Assembly: GCA_029860345.1 (NCBI GenBank)
Contig: JAOUBJ010000003.1
Location: 132,709-196,708 of the forward strand
Origin: Candidatus Zixiibacteriota bacterium
Lineage (GTDB): Bacteria > Zixibacteria > MSB-5A5 > GN15 > FEB-12
Direction: 5' to 3'
Length of the DNA stretch: 64,000 nucleotides
Part shown: positions 8,019-26,073 of the stretch, piece by piece
Layout: every line of letters begins with the position of its first letter
How positions within the stretch are numbered: the stretch's first letter is position 1
Made by a program: the position numbers and the translations under genes
The notes under the pieces: model-generated
The model's input: the letters and a program-made list of their open reading frames with translations, nothing else
Database searches by the model: none
Told to the model about the DNA's origin: nothing

Positions 8019-8687
8019 TTACAAAATATCCCGCCCGGCCCGCTCGAGTAGGCTGGCCGAGGCACCCTCGCGCACCGGGATAATATCAGAACTCAACTCG
8101 GCCGTGTTGATACGGGCCAGGGCGTTGACAACCAGTTGTGCTTCCTCAAGTGATTTCAACTCGACCACTTGCACGTTGCAGGTGGTGTCACACTCCAGCA
8201 CATCAACATTGGCCTCCAGGAGACCGAGGTCAAAAAGAAGATCGCAGATGGCCTCATCATCCTCGGCCAGCTCCTTCTCCACGCCGGCAAAAGCGACTGC
8301 GTAACCGATCGTTTGATCATACTGAAACGGTATCAAGGCCACAGCCAGCAAAGCCGCCAACGCCACCGATGCATAAACCACCCGAGCCGGTCGCCACCAC
8401 CGAACGATTGAGAAGCTTCCGGCTGTGCGATCTGTTCCTGCACGGCCATCGCCTGAAGATGCTATCCGAGCCTCGACTCTTTGTCGCGCTTGATGGAAGG
8501 GTGTTATGCCGGATGTGTCGTCCTCGTCCGCTGCCCGCAGAACCTGTGTCAGAAGGCCGGCTGCCTGAGCTTCCTCTCTGCAACGGGGGCAATCTCTGAG
8601 ATGATCCACCAGTGACGAGTCCGTCTGAGGATCGGCGCCCGCCTGCACTAGCTCGTTTATTCTCCGTTGGGCCTGGTCGCAATGCAT
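8019..8687 (-). CDS. anti-sigma factor with zinc-finger (ZAS) domain
   Basis: A 222-residue inner-membrane anti-sigma factor. The N terminus (1-45) has the ZAS signature DHLRDCPRC (H-x3-C-x2-C) expected to grip the partner sigma. One transmembrane segment lies at about 106-122 (VVYASVALAALLAVALIPF), leaving a C-terminal domain of about 95 residues in the periplasm as the likely sensor. Its start lies 31 bases inside the 3' end of the sigma gene, the usual arrangement for a sigma and its own inhibitor. The C-terminal part, which contains a CDTTC motif, matches nothing I can name, so the signal is unknown. Confidence 0.85.
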   Translation of the reverse strand: MHCDQAQRRINELVQAGADPQTDSSLVDHLRDCPRCREEAQAAGLLTQVLRAADEDDTSGITPFHQARQRVEARIASSGDGRAGTDRTAGSFSIVRWWRPARVVYASVALAALLAVALIPFQYDQTIGYAVAFAGVEKELAEDDEAICDLLFDLGLLEANVDVLECDTTCNVQVVELKSLEEAQLVVNALARINTAELSSDIIPVREGASASLLERAGRDIL

Positions 8688-9238
8688 TGGTTTATCCCGT
8701 TGATATTTGTTAGCTCACTGTCTCCGCCTATGTCGGCCAGGAGTTTTTTGAGTCGCTTTTTCATCTTCTGTCTGGCCCGGTGGAGCCGGACTTTTATTGC
8801 GCTTTCGCTCTTGTCATATAACTGTGCCAGTTCGGCTATGCTCCATTGTTCCAACTCGTGCAGGGTAACCAGAGCCTGTTCATCGGGCGATACAGCCGTG
8901 AAAGCGAGGTCAAGCCAACGTCGAGCATTAAACCGGTTGACGGGGTCAGTGACGGCATGATCCGATTCGATCTCAGGTGTCAACGATACTCGCCTCTGCC
9001 ACCAGGGTCGCCGAATACTGTCTCGAAAAGTGCTGATCAGGATTCTGTACAGCCAGGGTCGAAAGGATTCATTATTGCGCAGATCAGAAAACTTGGTCAT
9101 CGCCTTCACCATTACATCCTGCAAAAGGTCATCGGCGCGATCGCGGTCGCCACAGAGTTTGCGGCAGTACAGCGTCGCGCGCACATATTCGGGCTCCATT
9201 AACTTCCAGAACAGCTCTTTTGTTTCTTGCATCCGCAC
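8657..9238 (-). CDS. ECF-family RNA polymerase sigma factor
   Basis: A sigma-70 family ECF protein, 193 residues at most. Region 2 covers about 10-80 (RADDLLQDVMVKAM, FRPWLYRILISTFRDSIRR). Region 4 covers about 115-165 (VSPDEQALVTLHELEQWS, then SESAIKVRLHRARQKMKKR, a typical recognition helix). The listed start is GTG at 9238; the ATG two codons later (9232) is an equal candidate, and neither has a strong ribosome site. The 3' end overlaps the anti-sigma gene. A divergent permease gene begins 338 bases away and might be a target. Autoregulation is likely but no promoter motif could be fixed. Confidence 0.9.
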   Translation of the reverse strand: MRMQETKELFWKLMEPEYVRATLYCRKLCGDRDRADDLLQDVMVKAMTKFSDLRNNESFRPWLYRILISTFRDSIRRPWWQRRVSLTPEIESDHAVTDPVNRFNARRWLDLAFTAVSPDEQALVTLHELEQWSIAELAQLYDKSESAIKVRLHRARQKMKKRLKKLLADIGGDSELTNINGINQCIATRPNGE

Positions 9239-11978: not shown

Positions 11979-12000
11979 AACAGGGTCAAGCCCTGTTTTT
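11979..12000 (+). terminator. probable terminator after the permease gene
   Basis: AACAGGG (11979-11985) pairs with CCCTGTT (11991-11997) around a 5-base loop, followed by TTT. It starts three bases after the permease stop. The same motif could also be the edge of the repeat region that follows. Confidence 0.6.
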
Positions 12001-12057
12001 GCGCTTTGCGCGCATGTCGAAACCTCGCCCTTGTGCATAGTCACCACGAACAGTTTA

Positions 12058-12169
12058 GTAGGGCAGGATCCCTGTGATCCTGCCGATTCTGGCGGCATCA
12101 CAGGGATGCCGCCATAGAGGCTTCTACACCCAACCAAGAAAGGCGGGTCCGAAGACGGACCCACCCTAC
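12058..12169. repeat. compound palindromic repeat, three hairpins inside an outer stem
   Basis: Outer arms GTAGGG (12058-12063) and CCCTAC (12164-12169) enclose three hairpins: GGCAGGATC/GATCCTGCC (12062-12070, 12076-12084), GGCGGCATC/GATGCCGCC (12091-12099, 12105-12113) and GGGTCC/GGACCC (12145-12150, 12157-12162). A related element lies at 33573-33669. It has no coding capacity. I infer a dispersed non-autonomous repeat. Confidence 0.75.
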
Positions 12170-12256
12170 AGGAATTCACAACATGTCAAATCGCCGAGTT
12201 CATCCTTCGACTCCGCTCAGGATGAGGTGGGTGCGTTCATGCTTCGACTGCGCTCA

Positions 12257-12336
12257 GCATGACACAAGAGGGCGCGCGAAGCATGACACAAGAGGGCGCG
12301 CGAAGCATGACACAAGAGGGCGCGCGAAGCATGACA
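12257..12336. repeat. 24-bp tandem repeat, 3.3 copies
   Basis: Three exact copies of a 24-base unit (12257-12280, 12281-12304, 12305-12328) and eight further bases. The unit begins GCATGACACAAG and ends GGCGCGCGAA. The segment just before it, TTCGACTCCGCTCAGGATGA (from 12209), is repeated imperfectly at 12243. Both halves of the 24-base unit recur, split by an insertion, at 19628-19674. Confidence 0.9.
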
Positions 12337-12339
12337 ACA

Positions 12340-12400
12340 GTAGGTCGGAACCCCTTGTGGTCCCGACAATTGCGGCAGGTCCGTAAAGGACCTGACCTAC
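12340..12400. repeat. second compound palindrome
   Basis: Outer arms GTAGGTC (12340-12346) and GACCTAC (12394-12400) enclose a near-perfect GTCGGAACC/GGTCCCGAC hairpin and an AGGTCC/GGACCT hairpin. The layout is the same as at 12058-12169. It ends five bases before the stop of the cytochrome gene on the minus strand and may act as its 3' end structure. Confidence 0.65.
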
Positions 12401-12404
12401 AATA

Positions 12405-13955
12405 CTAATACCCCGAACTCTCGTCGTGACATTCGGTACATAGCATCTCGGCCCAGGCGCCGTCGATGTCTTCCGGATGCTCAAACAAAAGCCCGGTAAT
12501 ATCCGTTTCCAACTCCCCAGGGTCCTCCGATGCACCCTGTGCCACCATCAAGTGACAAGTCTTACAATCTGTGGCCAGAATCTGACCATACTGATTGGTC
12601 TTCTCACCATCGTGACAGCGGAAACAGCCCTCGTTGACGAAGTGGCTGAGGTTGTTTTCCCGCACCCGATAGTCGGTGCGCATCTCCGGGAAAAAGTTCT
12701 GGTCGTAGATTGAAGTCAGTGTTTTCGATGCCTGTTTTATGGCATCGACGGCCGAATCGGCTACTTTGGGGTAATTCTCCTGATAGTAATCGACTAAGCC
12801 ACTGGTGATTTTCATGTGAGCTTCGTCGTTGTCCTTGTAGTCGCCGTTAAGCAAATCGAGACCGACTTGACGAACGTATGGCAAACCGGGGTCTATGCGC
12901 CTTGTCGAGAGGGCCAGGTTAATGGACACCGCCGGCGGTTGAAAGCGGTGCGACGGTCGGTTGTGGCAATCCATGCAGTCGAACCGCCGAATCTCATACA
13001 AGCTTGAGTCCTCCCCTTCCGGAATTTGCAAATCGGTCAGTTCGAATCCGGGATCGGTGTACACGACTGTATCATTTTCGGCAGTGATAAAACGCACCCA
13101 GGGGATTTCCTGGCGTGTGTAATCGGTAGCGATATAATCAACGCGGTTCTCACCGATCATGTGCCAGTGGATACCTTCGGCCCGTCCGGTGCGCGGATTG
13201 CCACCGCCTATTTTGAGCAGCAGCTTTATAGTCCACGGCGAGTTTTCTTCGTCGGTGCGATAGTAGGTCCGCGTACTCAGTTTATCGCCGTAGAATTGTT
13301 GGGGCCAATGACAGTTCTCACAGGTCTCCTGAGCCGGTCTGAGATCGTGCACCGGCGTCTGAATCGGTCTGTCGAACAAATCAAGAGCCGTCGAATACAT
13401 CTGACGCATACCATCGAACTTGGCTTTCACCCAAAACGACGCACCTTCTCCGATATGACACTCAACGCATGGCACCTTGGCATGTGGCGAATTGTGATAG
13501 GTCACGCTCTGAGGTTCCATCACTACATGGCAGGTCTCGCCGCAGAAACCGGTGGAGTCGGTCGCTTCGTATGCCTTGGTCCCTATGTAGGCGACTACAA
13601 AAATCGACACGGACGACAATCCCAAAAAGAGCCAGAGGTTGCGCCAGTTTTGCGGAATGGTAGGATCGATTGACAACCGGAAGCGGATTCGCTCACCGGC
13701 TTTCCTGGCTTTGCGAATCTGCAGGGCCAGCGCACCGCCGAAAAACAGCAAGCCGATTAGCATGATAAAGGGCGCGACGACAAAGGTAACCAGTGAGCGA
13801 TACGGGTTTTCTGTACCACTGCTCAGATCGATCAGCAAAAGGATCAGAAACAAGAAGGCGCCGGAAAACAGCAGTGCTCCGCCGACCGCCGACAAGGGAT
13901 GTCTGAATATCGTTCGCCGCCGGATTTTTTGGGGCTTTTCTACTTCATCAGTCAT
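12405..13955 (-). CDS. NapC/NrfH-like membrane-anchored multihaem cytochrome c
   Basis: A 516-residue cytochrome with three membrane segments (about 20-42, 55-80, 105-125) and a periplasmic domain carrying seven haem sites: CGETCH (138-143, a CX3CH site followed by VVMEP as in NapC/NirT relatives), CVECH 163, CENCH 212, CMDCH 327, CFRCH 444, CKTCH 464 and CTECH 506. NapC/NrfH proteins oxidise quinol and pass electrons to periplasmic partners; here the natural partners would be the cytochromes encoded from 14.7 kb. It is longer than NapC or NrfH (about 200 residues), with extra membrane helices and C-terminal haems. It is divergent from the porin-cytochrome operon, 730 bases apart. Role inferred. 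Confidence 0.85.
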   Translation of the reverse strand: MTDEVEKPQKIRRRTIFRHPLSAVGGALLFSGAFLFLILLLIDLSSGTENPYRSLVTFVVAPFIMLIGLLFFGGALALQIRKARKAGERIRFRLSIDPTIPQNWRNLWLFLGLSSVSIFVVAYIGTKAYEATDSTGFCGETCHVVMEPQSVTYHNSPHAKVPCVECHIGEGASFWVKAKFDGMRQMYSTALDLFDRPIQTPVHDLRPAQETCENCHWPQQFYGDKLSTRTYYRTDEENSPWTIKLLLKIGGGNPRTGRAEGIHWHMIGENRVDYIATDYTRQEIPWVRFITAENDTVVYTDPGFELTDLQIPEGEDSSLYEIRRFDCMDCHNRPSHRFQPPAVSINLALSTRRIDPGLPYVRQVGLDLLNGDYKDNDEAHMKITSGLVDYYQENYPKVADSAVDAIKQASKTLTSIYDQNFFPEMRTDYRVRENNLSHFVNEGCFRCHDGEKTNQYGQILATDCKTCHLMVAQGASEDPGELETDITGLLFEHPEDIDGAWAEMLCTECHDESSGY

Positions 13956-14685
13956 GGTGACCTCTCATTTACCAGCCATTGCGGGCGGTCGGTATTGGCC
14001 GCCCGGAGCTTGTTAATTTTTTCTCAAGCTCCAGTTGGCGGAATATAAGTTTTCCTCGGTAAAACACAAGAGAAGTTTATGCACCTTTTGGATAATTATG
14101 GTATTCTTATTCTTTGTCGGGCAAGCCGATTCCTTCGACCGGTTCCGCTGATCGGCTCAAAACCAGTACCGACAGGGACATAGCAGGCCATACCCGGGGA
14201 TGTTCAAGGCGCTGCCAATCAGATAACTGCAGCCATTCACGCTCAATCTCGGCACTTCGCCGATGCTTGTTATTTTTTTCTCAATCGGCGGAGTTTGCCA
14301 TTTGTCGCGACAAACATGCAAGCATGCCTGAGTGCCGCCGTATCCCTCAGGGAGCCTGTTTTCCCCCTTATTCATGGTCATCTTTGTCCGGTTTTACTCC
14401 TCAAGCCCTGGTCTAAAGCTAATACTCTATGTGTTTCTACCGATAGATTAGCTAGGACGAGAATTGAGGATTTTGGACGATGTGTTGAGAGAATCACCAC
14501 AGAGAATGGGGGCCAGTTCTACCGATCCGAGAATTTCGAACGCTTTTATACAGATTCCCGCCGCTGGATTGGCCCATGTGAAAATATTCACTTTTATCTT
14601 GCACCCTGGCCTTGGATGGGGTAGGTATTATTGAAAAAAAAAGGCTAAACGAGCCCATGATACGGGACAATTTTGAGGTTTCTTT
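13956..14685. other. 730-base gap upstream of two divergent cytochrome genes
   Basis: No credible gene. The DNA is more AT-rich than its surroundings, with T-runs near 14019 and 14272. A 7-bp inverted repeat AGCTAAT (14417-14423) / ATTAGCT (14447-14453) with a 23-base loop is the only regular structure. The length suggests a long leader or regulatory region for the electron-transfer genes. I looked for a c-di-GMP (GEMM) riboswitch and did not see its conserved core. Confidence 0.5.
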
Positions 14686-15648
14686 ATGAGCAGTAGACCA
14701 ACGCATTGGCGACGATACAAGAGGCTTGGATCGATCCTGGCCATAGGTGTTATCGTTCTGTCGATACCACTGGTTCTCTATGGCGCTGAGGTTCCCGATG
14801 AGACCTGTCTGGACTGCCACGACGGTTTGGATAGTTCACTGGCGGAAGGAGTTCATCGGCTGAGTTCCCAGACCACCGGGTACGCCCTTGAGGTCGGGTG
14901 CGTGAATTGCCATACGGGTGGCGAGGCTCATATCGACGATCCGTCAACGGACAATATCACCAACCCCAGCCGCCTGATAGGCACCGAAGTTACCACACTG
15001 TGTTCCAAGTGTCATCAATCGCACCAGGAACTTGACGATTATGGTTTTGATGCTCACTCGACTTTGGAGATAAACTGTGCCGAATGCCATCGCGTACACA
15101 GTGTCGGTGGCCAGGAGTTGCTCGATGATCGGGCTGAGTTCTGTTTGAAGTGTCACCAGGAAATGAGCAACAAACTCTCCCGCCGGTCCAATCATCCGGT
15201 GCTTCAGGACAACGTCACCTGTTTGTCATGCCATAATTTCACCAAGCGGGCCGACCATAATACGGTCTATGGGTTAGGGGGCGTCTGTCAGGACTGTCAT
15301 CCCGATCAGGGCGGTCCCTTCCTGCATGAACATGCGGCCACCCAGGCATACGCGGTGACAGGCAGTCACTGTGTCGAATGCCACAACCCGCACGGCAGTG
15401 AGAACAATCGTCTGTTGCGTCAGCCGGGGAATCAGATGTGTCGCTCATGCCATGTTGAGCATGTTACCAGAAACCACGCCGATCTTTGGGATAACGTGTG
15501 GAGCAAACAGCCGTGTCAAACCTGCCATACTGATACCCACGGTTCTTTTGTCAGCGCGCTCTATCTGGACCCGGACTTACCCGCCAAACTCGGCGGGAAC
15601 TGCTATGATGCCGGATGTCATTCTCTCAACGGTCAGGGAGGCAACTAA
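14686..15648 (+). CDS. MtrA/DmsE-like periplasmic multihaem cytochrome c
   Basis: A 320-residue exported cytochrome with an N-terminal signal segment (about 12-33). It has ten CXXCH motifs (starting at 41, 72, 106, 131, 153, 179, 201, 229, 252, 277) and one CX4CH site, CYDAGCH (306-312). Length and haem spacing are close to MtrA/DmsE/PioA, the periplasmic decahaem cytochromes that sit in an outer-membrane porin. The next gene, whose ATG overlaps this stop, encodes that porin. GAGG precedes the ATG. It is expected to carry electrons from periplasmic donors into the conduit. The eleventh, CX4CH site is unusual for MtrA. Confidence 0.87.
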   Translation: MSSRPTHWRRYKRLGSILAIGVIVLSIPLVLYGAEVPDETCLDCHDGLDSSLAEGVHRLSSQTTGYALEVGCVNCHTGGEAHIDDPSTDNITNPSRLIGTEVTTLCSKCHQSHQELDDYGFDAHSTLEINCAECHRVHSVGGQELLDDRAEFCLKCHQEMSNKLSRRSNHPVLQDNVTCLSCHNFTKRADHNTVYGLGGVCQDCHPDQGGPFLHEHAATQAYAVTGSHCVECHNPHGSENNRLLRQPGNQMCRSCHVEHVTRNHADLWDNVWSKQPCQTCHTDTHGSFVSALYLDPDLPAKLGGNCYDAGCHSLNGQGGN

Positions 15649-17222
15649 TGGGACACTCTGTCATTACAAAACTGACCTTCCTGTTCGCGGCCTGTTGCCT
15701 GTTGCTTTGGGCACCTGCGCTGGCTGGTGAGGGGGGCGGCTCGATCAAGGCCGGTTATATCTACATCGACGAGGAAGGCAACCGGGGCGTAAATCATGAA
15801 ACCTACAACAGCTATGAAGGTCTGGGTATCTCGTTCGAGAACTGGAGATACCGGGTCAATAACAGCATCACTCTCCGGGCCGACCTTCGCAACCTCACGC
15901 TCAACAATCGTAACCTGCGTCTCTCAGCATCCAAGCCGGGACGGTTCAACATTTCGCTTAACAACAATCAATACCGGCGCAGCTATGATTTCGACGGCCT
16001 TCAGTTTACACGCCGACGCTCAACGGGCATGAAAATATCGGTACAACCATATCGAGAGATCACGCTGTTTGGTGGCTTCGGCCGGTCTGACAAACACGGC
16101 AACAGTGCCGTGCTGCTCTCCCCTGTTGCCGACACAGTCTATCACAGCACCGATTATGAGCACAGCAAATGGAACTTAGGCGCTCTGGCCGCCTTGCCAT
16201 ACGGCTTTGCACGGCTTGAATACCGTAGTTCAAGTTTCGATGATCGCCTGATCTCGAACGGTGATCGCAAGGCTGCCGGCATCAACCTGGATGCTCACAT
16301 CCGAGTACCCAATTACAGTTGGCTTGATCTGTCCGGCGGATACTACCACCGCACCGACGAGTACGAATCATCCGGCCTCGAATTGAAAACCAACCAGGGC
16401 TGGGGCGGATTCAAGCTTCATCTGCCCAAACTTCATCAAGTCGAGTATCGGCTACTCTTTGCTCGCACCAGGCACACCGGCGAAAACTCAGAGACCGACA
16501 ATGTCGTCAACACTTTGGCCGTTGGAAAAGCAATCAAAGGATATGGTGGTGTCAGGATAGGCTACGAGAATCGCATATCCGATGACCTTGTTGATCGCAC
16601 CGTTTCGCACGGGCTCCTGATCAAGGCCTGGTACGACTATCAGCGACGCTTGTTTATCAAGGCCTCGTTGGCCACACGCAAAAAACAAGTCAAGACCGGT
16701 GCCACGCTGCTTGGTGATGAAGACCTGACCCGCCACCGAGTAACGGCGCAGTATCGCAGTGCGGCGTGGGGCGACATCAGAGCACAGTGGCAGGGACGCT
16801 TCAGAACCAACGATGACTTGAACAGCCAAGTTGATTACCAATCGATCTCGCTGAATGCCAATCTGAAACGATCCGAATACGGGCGAGTAGCCATAGCCTA
16901 CAGCTACTACATGGGCAAGTACGAAAACACCGACCTCAATACCGGGTTTGAGTTCGCAGATAATGTCATTTCGGCAACACTGTATCCCAGGTCATACCGG
17001 AAGACTAATGCCTACATCGGCGGCAGCTACTATCGCAGCCGTCGCGACCTGGACACGGAGAAATTCAGCCTCAATTTCGGTGTGACATACGGCTTCCTGA
17101 AAGACCATGAGTTGGAAATCAAATACAATGTGTTCAACTTTGATGACTACCTGGCGCGAAGCGCCTACTACACAGCCAACATCGTTGAGATAAACGTTAA
17201 GAAAGCAGTATCTTTAGATTGA
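15648..17222 (+). CDS. MtrB/PioB-like outer-membrane beta-barrel of a porin-cytochrome complex
   Basis: A 524-residue outer-membrane barrel. I start it at the ATG at 15648, which overlaps the upstream stop (TAATG) and has AGGGAGG before it; this gives a clean signal peptide (MGHSVITK...APALAG). The frame stays open 33 bases further up but without a ribosome site. The mature part alternates polar and aromatic residues in strand-length blocks throughout and has no cytochrome motif. It lacks an N-terminal CXXC of the MtrB type that I can see. Flanked by the MtrA-like and lipoprotein cytochromes, it should sheath the haem wire through the outer membrane. Assigned by position and barrel pattern, not by a signature. 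Confidence 0.75.
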   Translation: MGHSVITKLTFLFAACCLLLWAPALAGEGGGSIKAGYIYIDEEGNRGVNHETYNSYEGLGISFENWRYRVNNSITLRADLRNLTLNNRNLRLSASKPGRFNISLNNNQYRRSYDFDGLQFTRRRSTGMKISVQPYREITLFGGFGRSDKHGNSAVLLSPVADTVYHSTDYEHSKWNLGALAALPYGFARLEYRSSSFDDRLISNGDRKAAGINLDAHIRVPNYSWLDLSGGYYHRTDEYESSGLELKTNQGWGGFKLHLPKLHQVEYRLLFARTRHTGENSETDNVVNTLAVGKAIKGYGGVRIGYENRISDDLVDRTVSHGLLIKAWYDYQRRLFIKASLATRKKQVKTGATLLGDEDLTRHRVTAQYRSAAWGDIRAQWQGRFRTNDDLNSQVDYQSISLNANLKRSEYGRVAIAYSYYMGKYENTDLNTGFEFADNVISATLYPRSYRKTNAYIGGSYYRSRRDLDTEKFSLNFGVTYGFLKDHELEIKYNVFNFDDYLARSAYYTANIVEINVKKAVSLD

Positions 17223-17229
17223 GGAGTAA

Positions 17230-19344
17230 ATGATGAGACAGTTGAGAATTGCAGCAGTGGGGCTGGCCGTTTTGATAGCGGTTTTCTCAGGCTGCGAGAG
17301 AAAGGTCACCGAGGAAGTGACCAAAATCGTCGCAGCCGAGGACGCTGCCGAATACATCGGAAGCTCTGCCTGTGGCGCATGTCATGCAGCTACCTATGAG
17401 AGTTTCCAGAACACCGGACACCCTTACAAGCTAAACGAGGCTGAAGATGTCCAGGCGGGTGACTACTATCCGTTCAGCGATGTGCCCGATGCGCCCTCTA
17501 TAGTATCATGGGACGATGTTGACAAAGTGATCGGTGGCTTCTGGTGGAAAGCGCGATTCATTCGCCACTCAGGCTCTATAGTTACCGGCGCCGCGGTCCA
17601 GTACAATCTGGCCACCGAGGGATGGGTCGGCTACCATGATGGGGAGGACCTCCCCTACGATTGTGGTCCCTGTCACATGACCGCCTATCGCGATACCGGC
17701 AACCAGGAAGGCCACGACAGCCTGATCGGTACCTGGGCATTCGGCGGCGTTCAGTGCGAGGAATGCCACGGTGCCGGTAGTCTGCATGCTTCCACACCCT
17801 ACGATGTCGCCATGAAAATCGACCGCTCCAACGAAGGTTGCGGCAAGTGCCACATCCGCGGCGATGTCAATAAGATTCCGGCCAGCGGAAGTTTTGTGAA
17901 GCATCACGAACAGTGGAACGAGATGTTCACCACCAAGCACGCCTCTATCCAGTGTGTGGACTGTCACGACGTGCACTATGGTTTGCATCCGGATAGCCCC
18001 GACCGCGACATGGCTATCAAGCTCACCTGTGAGAATTGCCATCTGGAAAAAACAGAATCGTTCGGGCGGACCGATATCGAGGAACACCTAAGCAGCCCGT
18101 TCGCGCCCGGCTGTATCGATTGCCACATGCCCAAAGGAGCCAAATCGGCCGTGGCAGCGGATACTTATGTCGGCGACGTGACTTCGCATTTGTGGCGGAT
18201 CAATACCGATGTCGACGCCGAGTACATCACCGACAACTTCGCCAACGGTTACCTGACTGTGGAGTACACCTGCCTTCAGTGTCACACCACCGAAGACAAG
18301 GCCTGGGCAGCGGCCAACGCCGACCGCTCCCACGCTCCCAACACGGCTGATACCGATGTTTGCATGACCTGCCACGACGGTTCCAACAATCTCGCTCAAA
18401 AAGTGATTGCCGCCACTCGTCAGTGGGAGTTCTCACTCCACGCAACCGGCGAACGCTCTGATCGCAGCCGTGGCTCTTGCGCTCCGTGTCATACCAATGA
18501 AGGATTCATAGCCGATCTTGAGGGTGAAGAAGTTGCCGGCGACGTCTTCAACGCCATCGGTTGTTTCACTTGCCACGATCCTCACACCAATGGATCGTTC
18601 GCTATCAGAACCACCGATGAAGTGGAGCTGGGCGACGGCACCGAATTCGACAACGGTATCTCAAATCTGTGTGCCAACTGCCACAAGAGCCGTCGCGATG
18701 TAGCTACCTACGTCGTAGCCGGCAAGGAAATGAGCAACCACTTCGGTCCCCATCACGGACCTCATGCCGACATGGTGATGGGCACAAACGCCTATGAGTA
18801 CGACGGATATACCTACACCAACTCGTGGCACACGTCTGGAATCGACGATCCCTGCCTGAGCTGCCACTACGACGAAGCCGACCGTTACGAATTCGGTGGA
18901 CATAGCTTCCGAATGAGGAACGAGGACGGCGATGAAAACGTCGAGGCCTGCAATATTACCGGCTGTCACGGCGACGAGTTCGAAATCGACAGCTTGAACA
19001 GGGTTGCCGACGCGGACTTCGACGGTGACGGTAACATCGAAGGCGTATTCGATGAGATCGAGGGTCTTATTGATGACCTGCAGGATGAGTTGATCGCGGC
19101 CGGCCTGCTCGAATGGATTGCCGAGGATGGCATTTGGGAACCTACCGATGACCTGGTTGTGCCGAACGTTGACAGTTTGGGCGCTGTCTACAACTGGGCC
19201 TTCGTCCATGAGGACCAGTCGCACGGCATCCACAACACTCTGTACGCTGTGGGGCTCTTGCGATCAGCCTATAATTACATGACGACCGGTGATCCCAACG
19301 GCGCTCCCGCCAGGCGGAAACCTGTCATGTTGACAACTCATTAG
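17230..19344 (+). CDS. outer-membrane lipoprotein multihaem cytochrome c
   Basis: A 704-residue lipoprotein: the lipobox FSGC puts the lipidated Cys at residue 22. It has thirteen CXXCH motifs (starting at 48, 145, 176, 204, 242, 267, 295, 348, 378, 417, 445, 481, 542) and one CX4CH, CNITGCH (574-580). After residue 585 there is an acidic haem-free tail with a calcium-like loop DADFDGDGN and a segment around GIHNTLYAVGLLRSA. It lies 7 bases after the barrel gene, with GAGGAG before the start. In porin-cytochrome complexes the third protein is an outer cytochrome that meets the external acceptor; this is the natural candidate, though it looks unlike MtrC/OmcA in domain layout. A strong terminator follows. 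Confidence 0.85.
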   Translation: MMRQLRIAAVGLAVLIAVFSGCERKVTEEVTKIVAAEDAAEYIGSSACGACHAATYESFQNTGHPYKLNEAEDVQAGDYYPFSDVPDAPSIVSWDDVDKVIGGFWWKARFIRHSGSIVTGAAVQYNLATEGWVGYHDGEDLPYDCGPCHMTAYRDTGNQEGHDSLIGTWAFGGVQCEECHGAGSLHASTPYDVAMKIDRSNEGCGKCHIRGDVNKIPASGSFVKHHEQWNEMFTTKHASIQCVDCHDVHYGLHPDSPDRDMAIKLTCENCHLEKTESFGRTDIEEHLSSPFAPGCIDCHMPKGAKSAVAADTYVGDVTSHLWRINTDVDAEYITDNFANGYLTVEYTCLQCHTTEDKAWAAANADRSHAPNTADTDVCMTCHDGSNNLAQKVIAATRQWEFSLHATGERSDRSRGSCAPCHTNEGFIADLEGEEVAGDVFNAIGCFTCHDPHTNGSFAIRTTDEVELGDGTEFDNGISNLCANCHKSRRDVATYVVAGKEMSNHFGPHHGPHADMVMGTNAYEYDGYTYTNSWHTSGIDDPCLSCHYDEADRYEFGGHSFRMRNEDGDENVEACNITGCHGDEFEIDSLNRVADADFDGDGNIEGVFDEIEGLIDDLQDELIAAGLLEWIAEDGIWEPTDDLVVPNVDSLGAVYNWAFVHEDQSHGIHNTLYAVGLLRSAYNYMTTGDPNGAPARRKPVMLTTH

Positions 19345-19361
19345 ATTGTATTTGTTGTGTG

Positions 19362-19395
19362 AAAAGGCCCCTTCAGACGAAGGGGCCTTTTTTGT
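19362..19395 (+). terminator. rho-independent terminator of the porin-cytochrome operon
   Basis: A 12-bp perfect stem AAAAGGCCCCTT (19362-19373) / AAGGGGCCTTTT (19380-19391) with a 6-base loop and following Ts. It ends the 14686-19344 operon. Confidence 0.93.
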
Positions 19396-19429
19396 ACGCG
19401 CATCCGAGTGAGCGTATCAAGCCGCTCCC

Positions 19430-19718
19430 CTCATTAGCTGTTCTCTTCGCAGGTCAGTCCGCCGTGGCGGATTGTGGTCGTGACAATTCGACGAGTGGCC
19501 GTTTCACACTTTGTTCCCTCGTTCAGCAGGGTCCTGGCCTCACCAATGGTGAAGCTGAGACCCAGCTGCTGCCATGGCGCAGGGTCTCACGCTGCCTTTG
19601 GCAGCGAAGGACCCAGCGCAACCCTATCATGACACAACCTGTCCGCCCAGGATGTGGTGAAGGGCGCGCGAAGCGAGAGGGAGCCATTGATGGCCCATCT
19701 ATGGGTCCCCTCTCACAA
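19430..19718. repeat. compound palindromic repeat region
   Basis: No gene. Nested short palindromes include CCGCCGTGGCGG (19461-19472), GCTGC-CTTTG-GCAGC, and GAGAGGG...CCCCTCTC close to the end of the neighbouring cytochrome gene. CATGACACAA (19628-19637) and GGGCGCGCGAAGC (19662-19674) repeat the two halves of the 24-base tandem unit at 12257, here separated by 24 other bases. It is the same class of dispersed repeat as at 12.1, 33.6 and 56.0 kb. Confidence 0.6.
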
Positions 19719-21689
19719 TCAAGTGTCGGCTGCGCGTTCCTTGCGCACTCTGTCATCCTTGCTTTCGCCAACACTGTCGCGCGAAGCCATATTCTCACGA
19801 TCCAGTTCCAGTATGATCGGATCTTCGGGATGCTCGTGACGATACTTGTCGACCGGCATCTTGCCTGAGTACCAGGCCGGGTTCATCGGATAGGTTCCGG
19901 GATTGAAAACAGTGGCATATAGATGCCAAACCATAATGGCCAGCGTGGCCAACCAGGCCTCATAGAAGTGAACCACCAACGCCACATCCAGATATGACTT
20001 GGAGAGCCACCCAATGAAGAAGTTGTCGAACCACAAGAGCAGTCCCGTTGCCACCATTACTACCGTACCCCAAACAAGCGCCCAGTACTCCGCTTTCTCA
20101 ATATAGGCGAAGCGTCCGAAACGAGGCTTGTCTTTGGCCAGGCCAAGATTGTAGCCGATCAGTTGAATCGCCTGTCGCAAGTCTGTCATGGTCGGGATCA
20201 TGTCCCTGAGGAAGCCTCTCCCGCGAGCCGTCATCAAGTAGAGCAGATGCCAAACAGTGGTCACTATCAACATCACCGCCGAAATACGGTGGATCGTGCC
20301 ACGGAGTTCGAAGCCGCCTTCCCACCCAAACAAAAGGTGAACCCATGTAGAATCGGAATACCTGAGAGCGAAGCCGGATACCACCAATGAAATGAAGGAC
20401 ACTGTCAGAAACGTGTGCTGCCACACTTCGCTTCTCGTCATGCGGACCAGTTGGGGACCCTTGCTGACTTTCTGAATCTCCTTGCGAAGGTCGATCAGCC
20501 AGTGAAGAAGCATACCCCCAATAACAAGAAGGATCAACCAAATATAGATATCTTTGACAATATTGGCCAGACGGTTGTCTTCCAAACCGGGATCACCATG
20601 GATTGGGGTCTGAGCTATCTCGGCTGAAATCTCGGGGTGACAGTTACCACAAGTTTCTTCAAGATTGTCGGCGTGGATCGATGACGTCGGATCGCTGTGA
20701 TCAAGGATGCGGTGACCACCGTGACAGGAAGCACAATTGGCCACCGACTGATCGCCAGCCTGGCTCTTCAATCCGTGATAGCTGTCGACATAGCTGACCT
20801 CTTCACCAGTGGGGATTTCATACTTTTCATTCAAGGCCGCCGATTCGTGACAGGGGCTGCAAGTAGCTTCGGCAATTCGGTCGGGACTTACCGGCGAACG
20901 AGGATCACTGGAGGCTATGATCCCGTGCTCACCGTGACAGTGGGTGCAGACCGGCGAATCATTATCCCCCTGCAGAACCAGTTGACCATGAATGCCATCC
21001 CAGAAGTCGCGCTCGATTCGTTGATGGCATTTTCCGCAGGTCTTTGGAATATTGAAATGGTTGACCGATGACTCCAGATGATTGGCCGCCAAAATATGAT
21101 GCGAACTGCCACCGGGGGAATGACAATCGACACAGGTTGCGGCCGAGTAGATACCGCCAATCTCGGTCTTCCCATGAACTGAACTTTGGTATGTCTGTAC
21201 CGCCTGATCGTAAAGAGTCACATGCTTCTCGGTCATATCCAGATTCTCATGGCACTTTCCGCACGTATACGGCAGATTGATCGGATTCACCCGAGATTGC
21301 TTCTCACTTGAGGCCAGAATATCGTGACGACCATGACAATTCGCGCAGCCGGGAATATCCACGCCACTCTCGGTCTTGAGTCGGCCATGCCACATGTATG
21401 TTTCGCTCACATCGGAGTGGCAGTCGCCGCATGGAACAGAGCCGGGCGTCTCCTCGTGCGGCAACTGTTCAATATCCAAATGACAATCGGTACATGAGAA
21501 TCCCTCATGAACCGAGCCGTTCAAGGCGACATCAAAAGCATGGTCACCATTGTCCTCGGTAACATCGTGGCAATCCAAACATGCGGTGGTACCGTCTCCT
21601 ACATCTTCCTGCGCCCGGACAGGCACCCCGACACAAATCAGAAGAACCAGAAGGGCCGACCAAAAACCAATGTTATGCGTTCGTATCAT
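19719..21689 (-). CDS. CbcL-like fusion: 11-haem cytochrome c plus membrane cytochrome b
   Basis: A 656-residue protein: signal peptide (1-26), eleven CXXCH motifs between residues 37 and 351 (CLDCH, CTDCH, CGDCH, CANCH, CGKCH, CVDCH, CGKCH, CTHCH, CSPCH, CASCH, CGNCH), then a membrane domain from about 382 with HydC/FdnI-type cytochrome b helices and histidines (IHRISAVMLIVTTVWH; VVHFYEAWLATLAIMVWH). This order matches CbcL of Geobacter, an inner-membrane quinol oxidase feeding the extracellular route. The CASCHGGH and HGEHGIIASSDP stretches repeat every 60-70 residues. It is divergent from the 19-haem relative at 22180. The last 20 or so residues are charged and abut a repeat region. Function inferred from architecture. 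Confidence 0.85.
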   Translation of the reverse strand: MIRTHNIGFWSALLVLLICVGVPVRAQEDVGDGTTACLDCHDVTEDNGDHAFDVALNGSVHEGFSCTDCHLDIEQLPHEETPGSVPCGDCHSDVSETYMWHGRLKTESGVDIPGCANCHGRHDILASSEKQSRVNPINLPYTCGKCHENLDMTEKHVTLYDQAVQTYQSSVHGKTEIGGIYSAATCVDCHSPGGSSHHILAANHLESSVNHFNIPKTCGKCHQRIERDFWDGIHGQLVLQGDNDSPVCTHCHGEHGIIASSDPRSPVSPDRIAEATCSPCHESAALNEKYEIPTGEEVSYVDSYHGLKSQAGDQSVANCASCHGGHRILDHSDPTSSIHADNLEETCGNCHPEISAEIAQTPIHGDPGLEDNRLANIVKDIYIWLILLVIGGMLLHWLIDLRKEIQKVSKGPQLVRMTRSEVWQHTFLTVSFISLVVSGFALRYSDSTWVHLLFGWEGGFELRGTIHRISAVMLIVTTVWHLLYLMTARGRGFLRDMIPTMTDLRQAIQLIGYNLGLAKDKPRFGRFAYIEKAEYWALVWGTVVMVATGLLLWFDNFFIGWLSKSYLDVALVVHFYEAWLATLAIMVWHLYATVFNPGTYPMNPAWYSGKMPVDKYRHEHPEDPIILELDRENMASRDSVGESKDDRVRKERAADT

Positions 21690-22179
21690 TTAACTCTCCT
21701 TTTGAGTCTATTTTCTCTCATCGGCTGTACAAGGTCAATACTTGCGTGCCTGAGTCCAAAGTAAGTAAATTTCATGTGAAATCTTTCACAAATATCCACA
21801 AAAAAAAGTCAATCATCATTCTCATATTATCATAATACCGATTTACGTATTTGGCAAGCGGAAAAAACAGATAAAACTATCCCTATTCTGGTTTTGTATT
21901 GATTCTTGGGGGTTTTCAAGGGGAAAACTGTCTTGTTTGCACCCGGTTTGCAGCGGCAGGCTATCTGTTTATTGAGGCGGAACAGCCTCTGGAGGCGCCT
22001 TGATCTGGATTGAGCACGAGATCAAGCATATAAACCATGTGAATAATTTCTCTAAAATATACCAATCTTGACAGGTTTTCTCTTGACCAGGCGAGAAAGT
22101 TTATTATGCTTATGGAAAGTTATCGGCTGAATGTCTCAGCCGAGGCTTTGGATTTGACATTGAGGACAAAGAGAGACTT
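21690..22179. other. 490-base divergent promoter region of the two CbcL-like genes
   Basis: No gene. It is markedly AT-rich from 21760 to 21850, consistent with promoter and activator sites. A candidate promoter for the plus-strand gene is listed separately. No palindromic operator or riboswitch was recognised. Confidence 0.5.
22083..22110 (+). promoter_or_regulatory. candidate sigma-70-like promoter for the 19-haem gene
   Basis: TTGACC (22083-22088), a 16-base spacer and TATGCT (22105-22110), 70 bases before the start codon. A further TTGACA lies at 22068-22073. It is a weak match; treat as a suggestion. Confidence 0.3.
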
Positions 22180-24981
22180 GTGACCAACAACATTTCCGGA
22201 CGCTTGAGCCTTTTCATCTTCGTTCTGCTGACCATTTTCATTGCGGGACCGGCCTCGGCCCAGGAGGTTGATGACTGTCTGGCCTGCCATGATGATCCCG
22301 ACCTTACCAAAGAACGCCGGGGCCGAGAGGTATCCCTGTTTGTCAACCTGGATAGCTTTCACAAATCGGTCCATGGAGATCAGGATTGTATCGATTGTCA
22401 CCAGGACCTTACCGATGTTGACTTTCCGCATGAGGATTCCCTTGAACCTGTCGACTGCTCAATGTGTCACGACGACGTGGCCGAGACCTACATGGCCAGT
22501 CTGCACGGCGAGTTGGTGGCCAAAGGTGAAGACCTGGCGCCTAAGTGCTGGGACTGTCATGGTGCTCATGATATAGTAGGACCGGATCAGCCCGGTTCGG
22601 CTGTTACCAAGTTCAATATTCCGGTTATGTGCGGGCGATGTCATAAAGAGGGTTCGGCAGTGACGCGAGCCTATGATATCCCGGAAGACAGCGTTCTTTC
22701 CAACTACTCGCAATCGATCCACGGCGTTGGTCTGTTTCAACGAGGGTTAACTGTTACCGCAGTATGTGTGGATTGCCACACCGCGCATAACGTCCGTGAC
22801 CACACCGATCCTGAATCGTCGATTCATCGCGGCAATGTCGCCAACACCTGTCAACAGTGTCACGGCCAGATTGAGAAGGTCCATCGCAAAGTAATCCGCG
22901 GCGAGTTATGGGAGAAGCAACCCGAGCAGGTGCCGGTGTGTGTGGACTGTCACTCCCCTCACAAAATCCGGAGAGTATTCTACGAAGAAGGGATGGCCGA
23001 CCGCGAATGCATGGAATGCCACCAACAACCTGATCTTTCCATAACCAGGGACGGCGAGGTTCATTCGCTGTATGTCGACTCCATCGAAACGCACAGCTCG
23101 ATACACCGCAACACTTCCTGCGCCCAGTGTCATACCGGTGCAACACCCGGACTCGACAGACCCTGCGCCACCGTGGCTACAAGTGTGGACTGTTCCAATT
23201 GCCATCCCGAGATTGTCGACATTTATAAGACCGGTATGCACGGTACCCTGGCCGATAGGGGCGACGAAGATGCTCCGTCATGCACAGATTGTCACGGTAT
23301 ACACGATATTCGCGAGAAACTCGACAAGCTCTCACCCACCTTTCCCACCAACGTCCCCGAACTTTGCGGAAAGTGTCACCGCGAAGGTAACCAGGCAGCC
23401 GTGAGATACTACAATGGAGCGGAGCATCCGGACCATATCGTCGAGAACTACCGCATGTCGATTCACGGTAAGGGACTTCTGCAAAGCGGGCTGATTGTGA
23501 CCGCTATGTGCACCGACTGCCATACGGCGCACCATGTCTTGCCCCATGATGACCCGGAATCGAGCATACACCACGACAAAATTGCTGAGACTTGTGCCAA
23601 TTGTCACCACGGTATCTATGAACAGTTCACCAGTAGTGTTCACTCGCCCACCGTCACGGACACCGACAAACCGTTGCCCAACTGCAAGGACTGTCACCAG
23701 TCGCATACCATCAGTCGCGCCGACAAAGTAGATTTCAGACTGACGCTAAGAGACCAGTGCGGCGGCTGTCACGAGGAGGTTACCGAAAGTTACTTTGAGA
23801 CATTTCACGGCAAGGTATCCAAGTTGGGCTACTCGGCCGCGGCGCAGTGCTACGATTGTCACGGCGCTCACAATATACTCCCACCCGACAATCCGAAATC
23901 TACTCTGGCCCGACAGCATATTGTCGAGACCTGCGGCAAATGCCACAGCGGTTCTCATCGCCAGTTTGCCGGATACCTGACCCACGCCACCCACCATGAT
24001 CGGGACAAGTACCCGATTTTGTTTTACACTTTCTGGTTCATGACCTGCCTGTTGATCGGTACCCTGGTAATCGCCTTGACCCACACGCTACTGTGGTTGC
24101 CGCGCTCCTTCCAGGCCATGCGGCAGCATAAAAAGATGCGCGAGGACATGCGCGGACAGTTGCAGTATCGAAGATTCAAACCGCTGCATAGCCGGTTGCA
24201 CATTCTGGTGGTCATCAGTTTCCTCGGACTGGCCTTGACCGGCATGACCCTCAAGTTCTCCTACCTCGGTTGGGCTCAATGGATATCGGCTCTGCTGGGC
24301 GGTTTTGAATCGGCCGGGTTCATACATCGCTTGTGCGCGGTAATCACTTTCTTCTACTTCGGGGTGCATGTCTTCGATCTCATCTGGGTGAATCGGCACA
24401 AGAAGGTATCTCTGAAAGCGATGCTACGAAGCCCATATTCGATGTTGCCGAACTGGACGGATGCAAAAGAAGTGTATCACACCTTGAAGTGGTTCATCGG
24501 CATGGGCCCGCGCCCGGCTTACGGACGCTGGACCTACTGGGAGAAGTTTGACTACTTTGCCGTCTTTTGGGGTGTCGCTATTATCGGCAGCACCGGACTA
24601 ATGCTGTGGTTCCCGGAGTTTTTCACGCATCTCTTCCCCGGTTGGTTCATAAATGTGGCCACGATCATACACTCGGACGAAGCCCTTCTGGCGGTGGCCT
24701 TTATTTTCACCGTGCACTTTTTCAACACCCATTTTCGGCCGGACAAATTCCCGATGGATACGGTCATTTTCACCGGTCGCATGCCGCTTGAAGAACTCAG
24801 GCTGGAACGCCCCCGCGAATACGATCACCTGGTCAAGACTCATCAGTTGAGAAAGCACCTCATCGAACCGTTACCGCCGGCCATGGAGCGAACGGCGCGA
24901 GTTTTCGGCGCCATCGCCTTGACTATCGGGATCACCATAATCCTGCTCATTGTCTACGCCGAAGTATTCGGTTATCGTTGA
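22180..24981 (+). CDS. CbcL-like fusion: 19-haem cytochrome c plus membrane cytochrome b
   Basis: A 933-residue protein starting at GTG 22180. Signal peptide (1-28); nineteen CXXCH motifs between about residues 33 and 612, the last being CGKCH followed by SGSHRQF; then a membrane cytochrome b domain from about 613 to the end, with paired-His helices (FIHRLCAVITFFYFGVHVF; IIHSDEALLAVAFIFTVHFF). The periplasmic part contains an internal duplication: CWDCHGAHDI...CGRCHKEG...CVDCHTAHNV...DPESSIH and CTDCHGIHDI...CGKCHREG...CTDCHTAHHV...DPESSIH. It is built like the divergent 11-haem protein but much larger. Probably a quinone-linked inner-membrane oxidoreductase with a long haem arm reaching across the periplasm. 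Confidence 0.85.
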   Translation: MTNNISGRLSLFIFVLLTIFIAGPASAQEVDDCLACHDDPDLTKERRGREVSLFVNLDSFHKSVHGDQDCIDCHQDLTDVDFPHEDSLEPVDCSMCHDDVAETYMASLHGELVAKGEDLAPKCWDCHGAHDIVGPDQPGSAVTKFNIPVMCGRCHKEGSAVTRAYDIPEDSVLSNYSQSIHGVGLFQRGLTVTAVCVDCHTAHNVRDHTDPESSIHRGNVANTCQQCHGQIEKVHRKVIRGELWEKQPEQVPVCVDCHSPHKIRRVFYEEGMADRECMECHQQPDLSITRDGEVHSLYVDSIETHSSIHRNTSCAQCHTGATPGLDRPCATVATSVDCSNCHPEIVDIYKTGMHGTLADRGDEDAPSCTDCHGIHDIREKLDKLSPTFPTNVPELCGKCHREGNQAAVRYYNGAEHPDHIVENYRMSIHGKGLLQSGLIVTAMCTDCHTAHHVLPHDDPESSIHHDKIAETCANCHHGIYEQFTSSVHSPTVTDTDKPLPNCKDCHQSHTISRADKVDFRLTLRDQCGGCHEEVTESYFETFHGKVSKLGYSAAAQCYDCHGAHNILPPDNPKSTLARQHIVETCGKCHSGSHRQFAGYLTHATHHDRDKYPILFYTFWFMTCLLIGTLVIALTHTLLWLPRSFQAMRQHKKMREDMRGQLQYRRFKPLHSRLHILVVISFLGLALTGMTLKFSYLGWAQWISALLGGFESAGFIHRLCAVITFFYFGVHVFDLIWVNRHKKVSLKAMLRSPYSMLPNWTDAKEVYHTLKWFIGMGPRPAYGRWTYWEKFDYFAVFWGVAIIGSTGLMLWFPEFFTHLFPGWFINVATIIHSDEALLAVAFIFTVHFFNTHFRPDKFPMDTVIFTGRMPLEELRLERPREYDHLVKTHQLRKHLIEPLPPAMERTARVFGAIALTIGITIILLIVYAEVFGYR

Positions 24982-25145
24982 TTGGCGTCTGGCCCACAGT
25001 CTATTTGTTGACTTTCGGGGCTCCAGTCTATTGACTTAGAATTGTCCATCGAATCGGACCAAGGCCTTCTGGTGCCTGCTGATGCAAAGTGGCTTATTGG
25101 CAGTGGAGACCGGCACTTGGAGGAAGTCTATCAAGGAGGTTGGAG

Positions 25146-25610
25146 ATGGCTGAGACCATAAGAATTGTCAAATATTACTATGCGACTGTCGGTGACCGGC
25201 CGGGCGAAGCGAGGCGCTTGATGGAGCACCTCAGTGAAAGAGGGGTTAACCTGCTGGCCTTCACGGCCTTTCCCATCGAGGGGAACAGATCACAGTTGGA
25301 TTTCGTCCCCGACAAGTCCGAGGAGTTGCTGGCGGCCGCTGCCGATGCCGGCGTGGATCTGGTCGGCCCCAAGGAGGCCATTCTTATCCAGGGGGACGAC
25401 CGAGCGGGAGCCTTGCATGACCATCATCTGAAACTGGCCAACGCCAACATCAACGTGCACGCCGCTAATGGTGTCGCCTGCGGATCAGGACGCTTCGGCT
25501 ATATCCTGTGGGTGGCGCCGTCTGATGTCAAAAGCGCCACCGAGGTGCTGATGGGCAGCGAAACCGACGGCCCCCATGGCACCCTGCGTCCGGGCGGGGT
25601 GGATTGGTAG
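25146..25610 (+). CDS. small protein with two ACT-like domains
   Basis: A 154-residue cytoplasmic protein. The ATG at 25146 has AAGGAGGT (25133-25140) at good spacing; the open frame upstream has no such site. Residues 18-75 (GEARRLMEHLSERGVNLLAF) and 85-145 (DRAGALHDHHLKLANANINV) each look like the beta-alpha-beta-beta-alpha-beta ACT fold, which binds small ligands, often amino acids. There is no catalytic domain, so it is a free-standing ligand sensor. The neighbours are unrelated and the ligand is unknown. Confidence 0.75.
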   Translation: MAETIRIVKYYYATVGDRPGEARRLMEHLSERGVNLLAFTAFPIEGNRSQLDFVPDKSEELLAAAADAGVDLVGPKEAILIQGDDRAGALHDHHLKLANANINVHAANGVACGSGRFGYILWVAPSDVKSATEVLMGSETDGPHGTLRPGGVDW

Positions 25611-26073
25611 ATTCCTCTTCAGAGGATGAGGAGGCTTACGGCAAGGATCAGGTGCCATTCGGCGTGGAGTGGTCTGAGCTTCTAATGATCGAAAACACGC
25701 GGTTGAGCGGCCCGCATGATCACCGGCCGGCACCAGTATAGTGCGACTCCAATAACCCTGGCCACCGGATAGGTATCCCCGGTGAACCGTGTCAACGGAA
25801 GCGCGATCAGTTGATTCGCTCCGACGACACCTTTTGTTGAGCGCTTTACGGGCTGGTATATTTCCAAAAACGCTTGACAGACCCACCTTGTCCATTAGAT
25901 TCAATTGTATTGCTCTGGGTCCGAATGTTGGCTTCCTAAATGGGGAGATCAGATTCTCTTCCCGCGGCGGCAACTCCCGCCCCGGGAACAAAGTTCTCTC
26001 AAACAACACACTGTGTTAAAAATGGGTAGGACCGCAAATCCCGCCCGGACTCCAAAGGCAAAGGAGACCAGTC
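25611..26073. other. 463-base gap upstream of the phosphoesterase gene
   Basis: No credible gene on either strand. It holds a candidate promoter at 25874-25901 and a GC-rich palindromic stretch CCCGCGGCGGCAACTCCCGC near 25962. Otherwise nothing recognised. Confidence 0.4.
25874..25901 (+). promoter_or_regulatory. candidate sigma-70-like promoter
   Basis: TTGACA (25874-25879), a 16-base spacer and TAGATT (25896-25901), 172 bases before the phosphoesterase start. The -35 is perfect and the -10 is fair. Confidence 0.35.

Follow-up and report, generated by a model that had tools for sequence, protein, structure and literature searches.

Results

An island of six genes with 62 haem-binding motifs

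Can one locus of a Candidatus Zixiibacteriota genome encode every layer needed to move electrons between the quinone pool and the cell exterior, and is such a system new? The question was raised by an earlier note, made from the letters of a 64,000-nucleotide stretch of DNA alone (the window), which proposed a complete extracellular electron transfer (EET) island. Reading the sequence, we found all six proposed frames in place within 12405-24981. Their proteins together contained 59 CXXCH, one CX3CH and two CX4CH motifs, 62 in sum. This was far above shuffled controls of the same composition (mean of at most 0.13 motifs per protein, maximum 3; n=200), confirming the proposed number of about 62 c-type haem sites. 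The island lies on contig 3 of the 4.76 Mb genome and is laid out as follows.

12405..13955, minus strand: putative ImcH-type cytochrome, 516 aa; 6 CXXCH and 1 CX3CH
13956..14685, no strand: 730 bp separating imcH from the divergently oriented conduit operon, read from the sequence
14686..15648, plus strand: MtrA-like cytochrome; 10 CXXCH and 1 CX4CH at the extreme C-terminus
15648..17222, plus strand: MtrB/PioB-like outer-membrane barrel, 524 aa; 0 haem motifs
17230..19344, plus strand: lipoprotein cytochrome, whole; 13 CXXCH and 1 CX4CH
17230..18342, plus strand: N8 module of the lipoprotein; 8 CXXCH; border approximate, about residue 371
18343..19344, plus strand: C6 module of the lipoprotein; 5 CXXCH and 1 CX4CH
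19719..21689, minus strand: CB11, cytochrome c-b fusion, 656 aa; 11 CXXCH
22180..24981, plus strand: CB19, cytochrome c-b fusion, 933 aa; 19 CXXCH

Strand and spacing gave at least four transcription units, namely imcH (minus), the MtrA-like, barrel and lipoprotein genes (plus), CB11 (minus) and CB19 (plus). In the three-gene operon the ATG of the barrel gene overlaps the stop codon of the MtrA-like gene, and 7 bases separate the barrel gene from the lipoprotein gene. The region between imcH and the operon contained a weak promoter-like match on the minus strand (14124-14095). A promoter scan of 12000-26000 returned 16 hits with 10.1 expected (sd 3.4) and a terminator scan 24 with 12.1 expected, and no conclusion was drawn from either. 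By hydropathy alone, a hydrophobic N-terminal segment was present in the five proteins other than the ImcH-type one. The island genes included no small periplasmic carrier.

Three further frames were noted in the window outside the island. A sigma-70 family sigma factor (8657-9238, minus strand) lies 3 kb from it and overlaps a 222-residue frame (8019-8687, minus strand) with a cysteine-rich N-terminus, a hydrophobic stretch and no Pfam match; the two (8019-9238) are a possible regulator pair. A 432-residue protein with a hydrophobic N-terminus is encoded at 28251-29549 (plus strand) and gave no Pfam match up to E 1e-4.

The barrel protein folds like MtrB

The earlier note had staked its proposal on the 15648-17222 protein being a barrel, and structure prediction agreed with it. 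The AF2 model contained 26 strands with a mean pLDDT of 71.8, the best of five models that spanned 40.7 to 71.8; residues 1-87 were below 50, and about four of the 26 strands lie there. Foldseek ranked 6r2q_B, from the Mtr complex of S. baltica according to a passage of PMC12133095, first at E 3.4e-13 (next entry 1.1e-8). VIA aligned 473 residues of the model with the same chain at 4.3 angstrom (Z 21.2; next entry Z 17.0). The modelled barrel is thus MtrB-like in fold, and MtrB is its nearest solved structure by a clear margin. Searches of the PDB by phmmer and by profile gave nothing meaningful, so it was fold comparison alone that settled the identity of the barrel.

Ordinary Pfam hmmscan detected no match in the barrel, nor did NCBIfam up to E 0.01. 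A genome search with PF11854 gave 28.4 bits as the sum of two stretches (E 0.04 and 0.06; cut-off 23), with the barrel frame as the sole match in the genome, and the model exceeded its cut-off in none of 14 control genomes. Only 4 of 33 barrel orthologs matched PF11854 at E up to 1 (best 3.2e-6). A barrel family that ordinary HMM scans miss is apparently new, as judged from the open-licence literature that we searched. Shewanella MtrB has an N-terminal CXXC pair, a feature that is not universal in the MtrB/PioB family. The pair is absent from our barrel, whose only cysteines are residues 16 and 17 in the signal-like N-terminus.

An MtrA-like cytochrome with an eleventh haem site

The gene directly before the barrel gene had been read as an MtrA-like cytochrome with 11 sites, which alignment substantiated. 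Against 6r2q_A, a chain that we take to be MtrA despite its label, phmmer gave E 1.1e-23 over query residues 39-287 with ten haems in register. The eleventh site, a CX4CH motif, lies beyond the end of this alignment. The protein scored 145.7 bits against the DmsE/MtrA decahaem model TIGR03508 (cut-off 192.2), and by sequence it is a homologue of the DmsE/MtrA decahaem family that falls outside the curated subfamily. It would presumably be inserted in the barrel.

Among 56 barrel-linked MtrA-like proteins, 42 contained eleven CX2-4CH motifs and 38 had a CX3-4CH motif within the last 60 residues. In an alignment of 16 sequences the eleventh site was CX4CH in most, CX2CH in L024 and CXCH in L062 and L065; it was missing in L025, L085 and L090, which adjoin other barrel-sized frames. 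The variant motifs (CX3CH, CX4CH) are presumed to carry haem. An eleventh haem site at the C-terminus of MtrA is, in the open-licence literature searched, apparently new.

Probable ImcH- and CbcL-type proteins at the inner membrane

The first gene had been described as a NapC/NrfH-like membrane cytochrome with seven motifs; the count was correct, but the family was not. The protein has three transmembrane (TM)-like segments before its haems, a CX3CH motif after the third, six CX2CH motifs and 516 residues. In TM number, motif order and length, this candidate ImcH-type protein fits the published description of ImcH (three TM segments, CX3CH beside the TM part, six CX2CH, about 500 aa; PMC6295460), and it shares these features with ImcH of Geobacter. 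It passed the Pfam model of the NapC/NirT N-terminal region (29.0 bits, cut-off 24.1) and reached 52.1 bits against the NrfH model TIGR03153, far under the cut-off of 134.2. A role as NrfH partner of NrfA was rejected on this score and on the result of a genome search for NrfA, which returned no PF02335 match.

The two cytochrome c-b fusions proved to be as proposed, with 11 and 19 haem sites. CB11 has its 11 c-haem sites followed by a b561/FdnI-like membrane domain (Pfam Ni_hydr_CYTB, E 3e-12 at 418-596), and all 18 aligned sequences, window included, contained 11 CXXCH motifs. CB19 has 19 sites followed by a b561-like membrane domain that scored 26.5 against the b561 Pfam model, under the cut-off of 30.1; of the 22 aligned sequences, the window's among them, 19 had 19 CXXCH motifs and the others had 14, 16 and 21. 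Simple hydropathy gave four (CB11) and five (CB19) TM segments after the haems, against six expected for CbcL/MtrH/MtoC. With an N-terminal c-haem string, a C-terminal b-type membrane domain, and a size and haem number within the published range (3-23 haems, 416-1034 aa; PMC6295460), both fit the CbcL/MtrH/MtoC type as putative members. They differ from the known systems in that two unequal members are neighbours, an arrangement found repeatedly in the phylum.

A modular, probably surface-exposed lipoprotein related to OcwA

The third gene of the operon was confirmed to encode a 14-site lipoprotein cytochrome. The N-terminus has a signal-like stretch followed by a lipobox-like FSGC-ERKV, and the protein probably sits at the cell surface. 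No second copy was found in the genome. We rejected an identification as MtrC, since the OmcA/MtrC NCBIfam model TIGR03507 gave no match up to E 0.01 with the whole protein or with either module. It may yet be distantly related to MtrC, because the whole protein passed PF22113 (MtrC/MtrF domains II/IV) with 55.3 bits at 266-424 (cut-off 30). This match is not specific, however, because the MtrA-like protein passes as well (30.4 bits, same cut-off). Among C6 modules, 23 of 27 matched PF22113 at E up to 0.001; the copy from the window reached 28.0 bits, less than the cut-off.

The best match of the N8 profile was OcwA (6i5b_A, E 3.6e-21), over profile positions 35-214 of 379 and about 190 OcwA residues. 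A 681-residue multihaem cytochrome, 6qvm_A, came second (E 1.4e-12); its length suggests that it is probably OmhA of Carboxydothermus. These N8 and C6 comparisons used a cut at residue 378/379, which falls inside the first C6 motif, the true border being at about 371. N8 has eight motifs to the nine haems of OcwA, a protein that also ends in a C-terminal three-helix bundle; the fold model of N8 was poor (pLDDT 35.7). According to PMC6703420, where 6i5b is mentioned once, OcwA is a surface reductase of iron oxide that is unrelated to MtrC, OmcA and UndA and similar to cytochromes of the nitrogen and sulfur cycles. N8 is homologous to OcwA of Thermincola (and probably to OmhA), and the surface role known for OcwA may hold here too. 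Unlike OcwA, which it matches in part, the protein is a Gram-negative lipoprotein placed on an MtrAB-type conduit and carries an extra six-haem module.

In another reading, the lipoprotein would be kin to NrfA, HAO or MccA and act at the surface as an enzyme on some soluble compound of nitrogen or sulfur, and the conduit would feed that reaction and not minerals. The N8 profile does match MccA (4.5e-5), octahaem nitrite reductase (0.0013) and cytochrome c554 (0.0046), all weakly and among hits, MtrA included, at 3.6e-5 and above; its best matches are OcwA and the 681-residue cytochrome, not these enzymes. The lipoprotein has no CXXCK motif, which is weak evidence against an enzyme because OcwA slowly reduces nitrite and acts on hydroxylamine without the usual catalytic motif (PMC6703420). 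We consider this reading quite improbable and favour a cytochrome that passes electrons to an external acceptor.

At 53 loci the lipoprotein occurred as C6 (32), N8C6 (12), N8 (6, counting L022, whose frame is interrupted) or N8N8 (3), with 6 haem motifs in 29 proteins, 14 in 12, 8 in 5, 16 in 3, 5 in 3 and 1 in 1. A quick tree built from the 53 barrels required 11 changes of architecture, compared with a mean of 19.2 after shuffling and a number as low in 0 of 200 shuffles; the presence of N8 took 5 changes. In this tree 15 of 50 inner branches had support under 80, and gains were not distinguished from losses. Well-supported branches by themselves forced 3 changes for C6, 4 for N8C6, 3 for N8 and 3 for N8N8. 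Given these changes, it seems that one surface cap has replaced another several times on a conduit that remained the same. A modular N8/C6 surface lipoprotein outside the OmcA/MtrC NCBIfam model is apparently new, and we found no paper on it in the open-licence literature.

A conserved conduit core and its loosely linked, probable entry proteins

Conservation of the cluster in relatives was the second point on which the proposal had been made to depend, and we found that the three-gene core was kept. The barrel family was present in 71 of 132 genomes from the phylum; fragmented drafts are numerous among these 132, and contig ends can hide linkage. Gene order was read at 58 loci, from 56 of the 71 barrel genomes plus L021 and L022, with L023 and L024 not counted, since they duplicate L036 and L044. 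The MtrA-like gene lay directly upstream of the barrel gene at all 55 loci with room for it, and the lipoprotein gene directly downstream at 52 of 56. Among the ten genomes behind the first close loci, five had the barrel family (L021, L022, L023, L024 and L028), and it was not found in the three Acidobacteria, one Spirochaeta and one Deltaproteobacterium. The records of L021 and L022 are assigned to Candidatus Latescibacterota.

The entry proteins behaved differently. ImcH-like proteins (E up to 1e-40, identity at least 32%) were detected in 91 of 132 genomes. Orthologs of CB11 and CB19 were picked by hand among the matches listed, in 51 of 103 and 52 of 98 genomes with weaker paralogs dropped, and were therefore present in at least 51 and at least 52 of the 132. 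Barrel and ImcH-like genes co-occurred in 62 genomes (odds ratio 7.6, p 1.3e-6, kinship ignored). With picked orthologs among the matches listed, 33 genomes had both CB11 and CB19, and in 32 of them the two lay within 20 kb of each other. The same distance separated ImcH from CB19 in 24 of 40 genomes and CB19 from the barrel in 8 of 33; for ImcH and the barrel it was 15 of 62. All four lay within 20 kb in at least 4 of 132 genomes (G000, G039, G048 and G055). The window thus brings together two modules that are usually separate, and the statement that all layers are together holds for its island and not for most relatives. CB19 orthologs were found without the barrel in 19 of 52 genomes (among the matches listed) and ImcH-like genes in 29 of 91, often enough that neither is dedicated to the barrel.

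It could then be argued that the six genes are not one system and that the three-gene conduit and the ImcH/CB11/CB19 set are neighbours by chance. The tight CB11-CB19 and ImcH-CB19 linkages, set beside the looser ones to the barrel, are what this view would predict. Yet ImcH and the barrel are found linked in seven of the phylum's family groups (f1, f2, f4, f9, f11, f15 and f17), the two genes co-occur across genomes, and separate loci can still cooperate. We therefore regard chance proximity as unlikely and treat the six genes as parts of one pathway.

Within the genus, the barrel was not found in five of six congeners. In one of these (G002; contigs 130 and 82, loci L083 and L084) ImcH was kept at 88% and CB11 and CB19 at 79-80%. 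No barrel or MtrA-like gene was present in the 7.7 and 18 kb around these genes, and the genome gave no barrel match. Either the conduit is an accessory trait in this genus, or an assembly gap may have removed it from G002.

A second conduit type with a haem motif in its barrel-like protein

A second conduit type was found in related genomes, in which an MtrA-like gene (ten haem motifs where complete) adjoins a barrel-like protein of 568-595 residues. One CXXCH motif was invariant in all eight of these second-type barrels, which are listed by locus.

L085, 3190-4977, plus strand: one-CXXCH barrel
L089, 4421-6178, minus strand: one-CXXCH barrel
L090, 16646-18352, minus strand: one-CXXCH barrel
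L092, 11376-13106, minus strand: one-CXXCH barrel
L113, 4913-6655, plus strand: one-CXXCH barrel
L114, 5945-7657, minus strand: one-CXXCH barrel
L053, 5924-7633, plus strand: one-CXXCH barrel
L122, 13590-15323, minus strand: one-CXXCH barrel

Two of the eight matched the MtrB/PioB Pfam model at E up to 0.01 (best 9.7e-7). Profile comparison between the window barrel family and the one-CXXCH family was weak (probability 7.8, E 0.0045), so the placement of both families in MtrB/PioB draws on few Pfam matches. A porin that carries its own c-type haem would, if true, be unusual.

Discussion

We found that the island combines a conduit of the MtrAB type with entry proteins of the ImcH and CbcL types and ends in a surface cytochrome of another kind, modular and related to OcwA. 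Alignment, fold and family comparisons support the original proposal of such a conduit, together with probable quinol-oxidising cytochromes and a probable surface cytochrome, in a lineage other than Shewanella, Rhodopseudomonas or Geobacter. Its description as an undescribed system was too strong, since reports exist of mtrAB in Zixibacteria metagenome-assembled genomes (MAGs; PMC9769843) and of Geobacter-like porin-cytochrome operons in Zixibacteria (PMC7005843), and iron-cycling genes of Zixibacteria are likewise in print. Our island is of the same phylum as that mtrAB, and a MAG named Dive96..., like a sample in PMC9769843, has the barrel family (L028); in the relevant passages of that paper mtrAB is named without lipoprotein modules, an eleventh haem or imcH linkage. 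A survey of MtrCAB reports it from three phyla, and its text has no mention of 'Zixi'. The 2018 survey of ImcH and CbcL homologs reports no mtrAB beside imcH, and the word 'Zixibacteria' is absent from it (PMC6295460). The window differs from the Geobacter arrangement in having imcH 0.7 kb from the MtrA-like gene, and imcH beside mtrAB is apparently new on the evidence of that survey and the open-licence literature searched.

Compared with MtrCAB of Shewanella, the island shares a decahaem MtrA in register, a barrel nearest to MtrB and a cytochrome gene directly before the barrel gene. It differs in the eleventh MtrA haem site, in a barrel that is shorter (524 aa) and lacks the cysteine pair near the N-terminus, and in a lipoprotein gene that follows the barrel gene and has no OmcA/MtrC NCBIfam match.

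The motifs, folds, homology, operon structure and conservation described above were established by computation, and from here we infer the order and direction of transfer and the acceptor. We propose, with a probability of roughly 0.8, that the island encodes a respiratory electron-export system running from quinol oxidation through an MtrAB-type conduit and a surface cytochrome to an external acceptor. Quinol in the inner membrane would be oxidised by the ImcH-type protein and the two c-b fusions. These three would be alternative points of entry, each perhaps suited to a different acceptor potential, an idea already put forward for ImcH and CbcL of Geobacter. The periplasmic haem strings of these proteins, or a soluble cytochrome encoded elsewhere, would deliver electrons to the MtrA-like protein, which would sit with its 11 haems inside the 26-strand barrel. 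At the cell surface, electrons would leave through the C-terminal eleventh haem to the lipid-anchored 14-haem cytochrome, which would reduce an external acceptor, for example an oxide of Fe(III) or Mn(IV), humics, an electrode or a partner cell.

The same conduit might instead run inward, with Fe(II), an electrode or a partner cell feeding electrons through the lipoprotein, the MtrA-like protein and the barrel to a CbcL-type protein and the quinone pool, and oxygen serving as final acceptor via a haem-copper oxidase. A haem-copper oxidase (COX1) gene is present in the genome, and homologs of CbcL/MtrH/MtoC, which are known from both Fe(III) reducers and Fe(II) oxidisers, are thought to work both ways (PMC6295460). 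Zixibacteria MAGs with mtrAB and rTCA have been called chemolithoautotrophic (PMC9769843). The island nevertheless has an ImcH-type protein, from a family that the abstract of PMC6295460 reports solely from Fe(III)-reducing bacteria, and genome searches for RuBisCO and for NrfA gave no match. Inward flow seems unlikely on balance, and export is the direction that we adopt.

The presence of the haem-copper oxidase also means that EET is at most one of several respirations in this organism. Two other large cytochrome clusters were observed in the genome, one with adjacent frames of 16 and 26 CXXCH motifs on contig 22 (26601-29836; L125) and one on contig 12 (59763-93752; L123 and L124). The latter holds cytochromes with 13, 17, 9, 10 and fewer CXXCH motifs and a 2718-residue frame with 11. 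The island is accordingly not the whole cytochrome equipment of the genome.

More tentatively, and at somewhat under even odds, these conduits may form a separate branch. In it a constant core of MtrA, mostly with 11 haems, and barrel would bear interchangeable caps (C6, N8, N8C6 and N8N8), N8 being shared with Gram-positive OcwA, and domain shuffling would yield surface wires of 6 to 16 haems; a sister conduit would pair a 10-haem MtrA with an MtrB-like porin that has its own haem.

Our results extend the MtrAB-type conduit across a sediment phylum that is largely uncultured, and in a form missed by ordinary HMM scans; they suggest that systems of this kind are undercounted by the standard models for MtrB and MtrC. 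Should the cap prove to be a modular lipoprotein related to OcwA and not MtrC, it would link the surface cytochromes of electroactive Gram-positive and Gram-negative bacteria. Natural variants with 6, 8, 14 and 16 haems on one conduit would then, if the reading is true, allow a direct test of how rate and acceptor range depend on the cap and the length of the wire.
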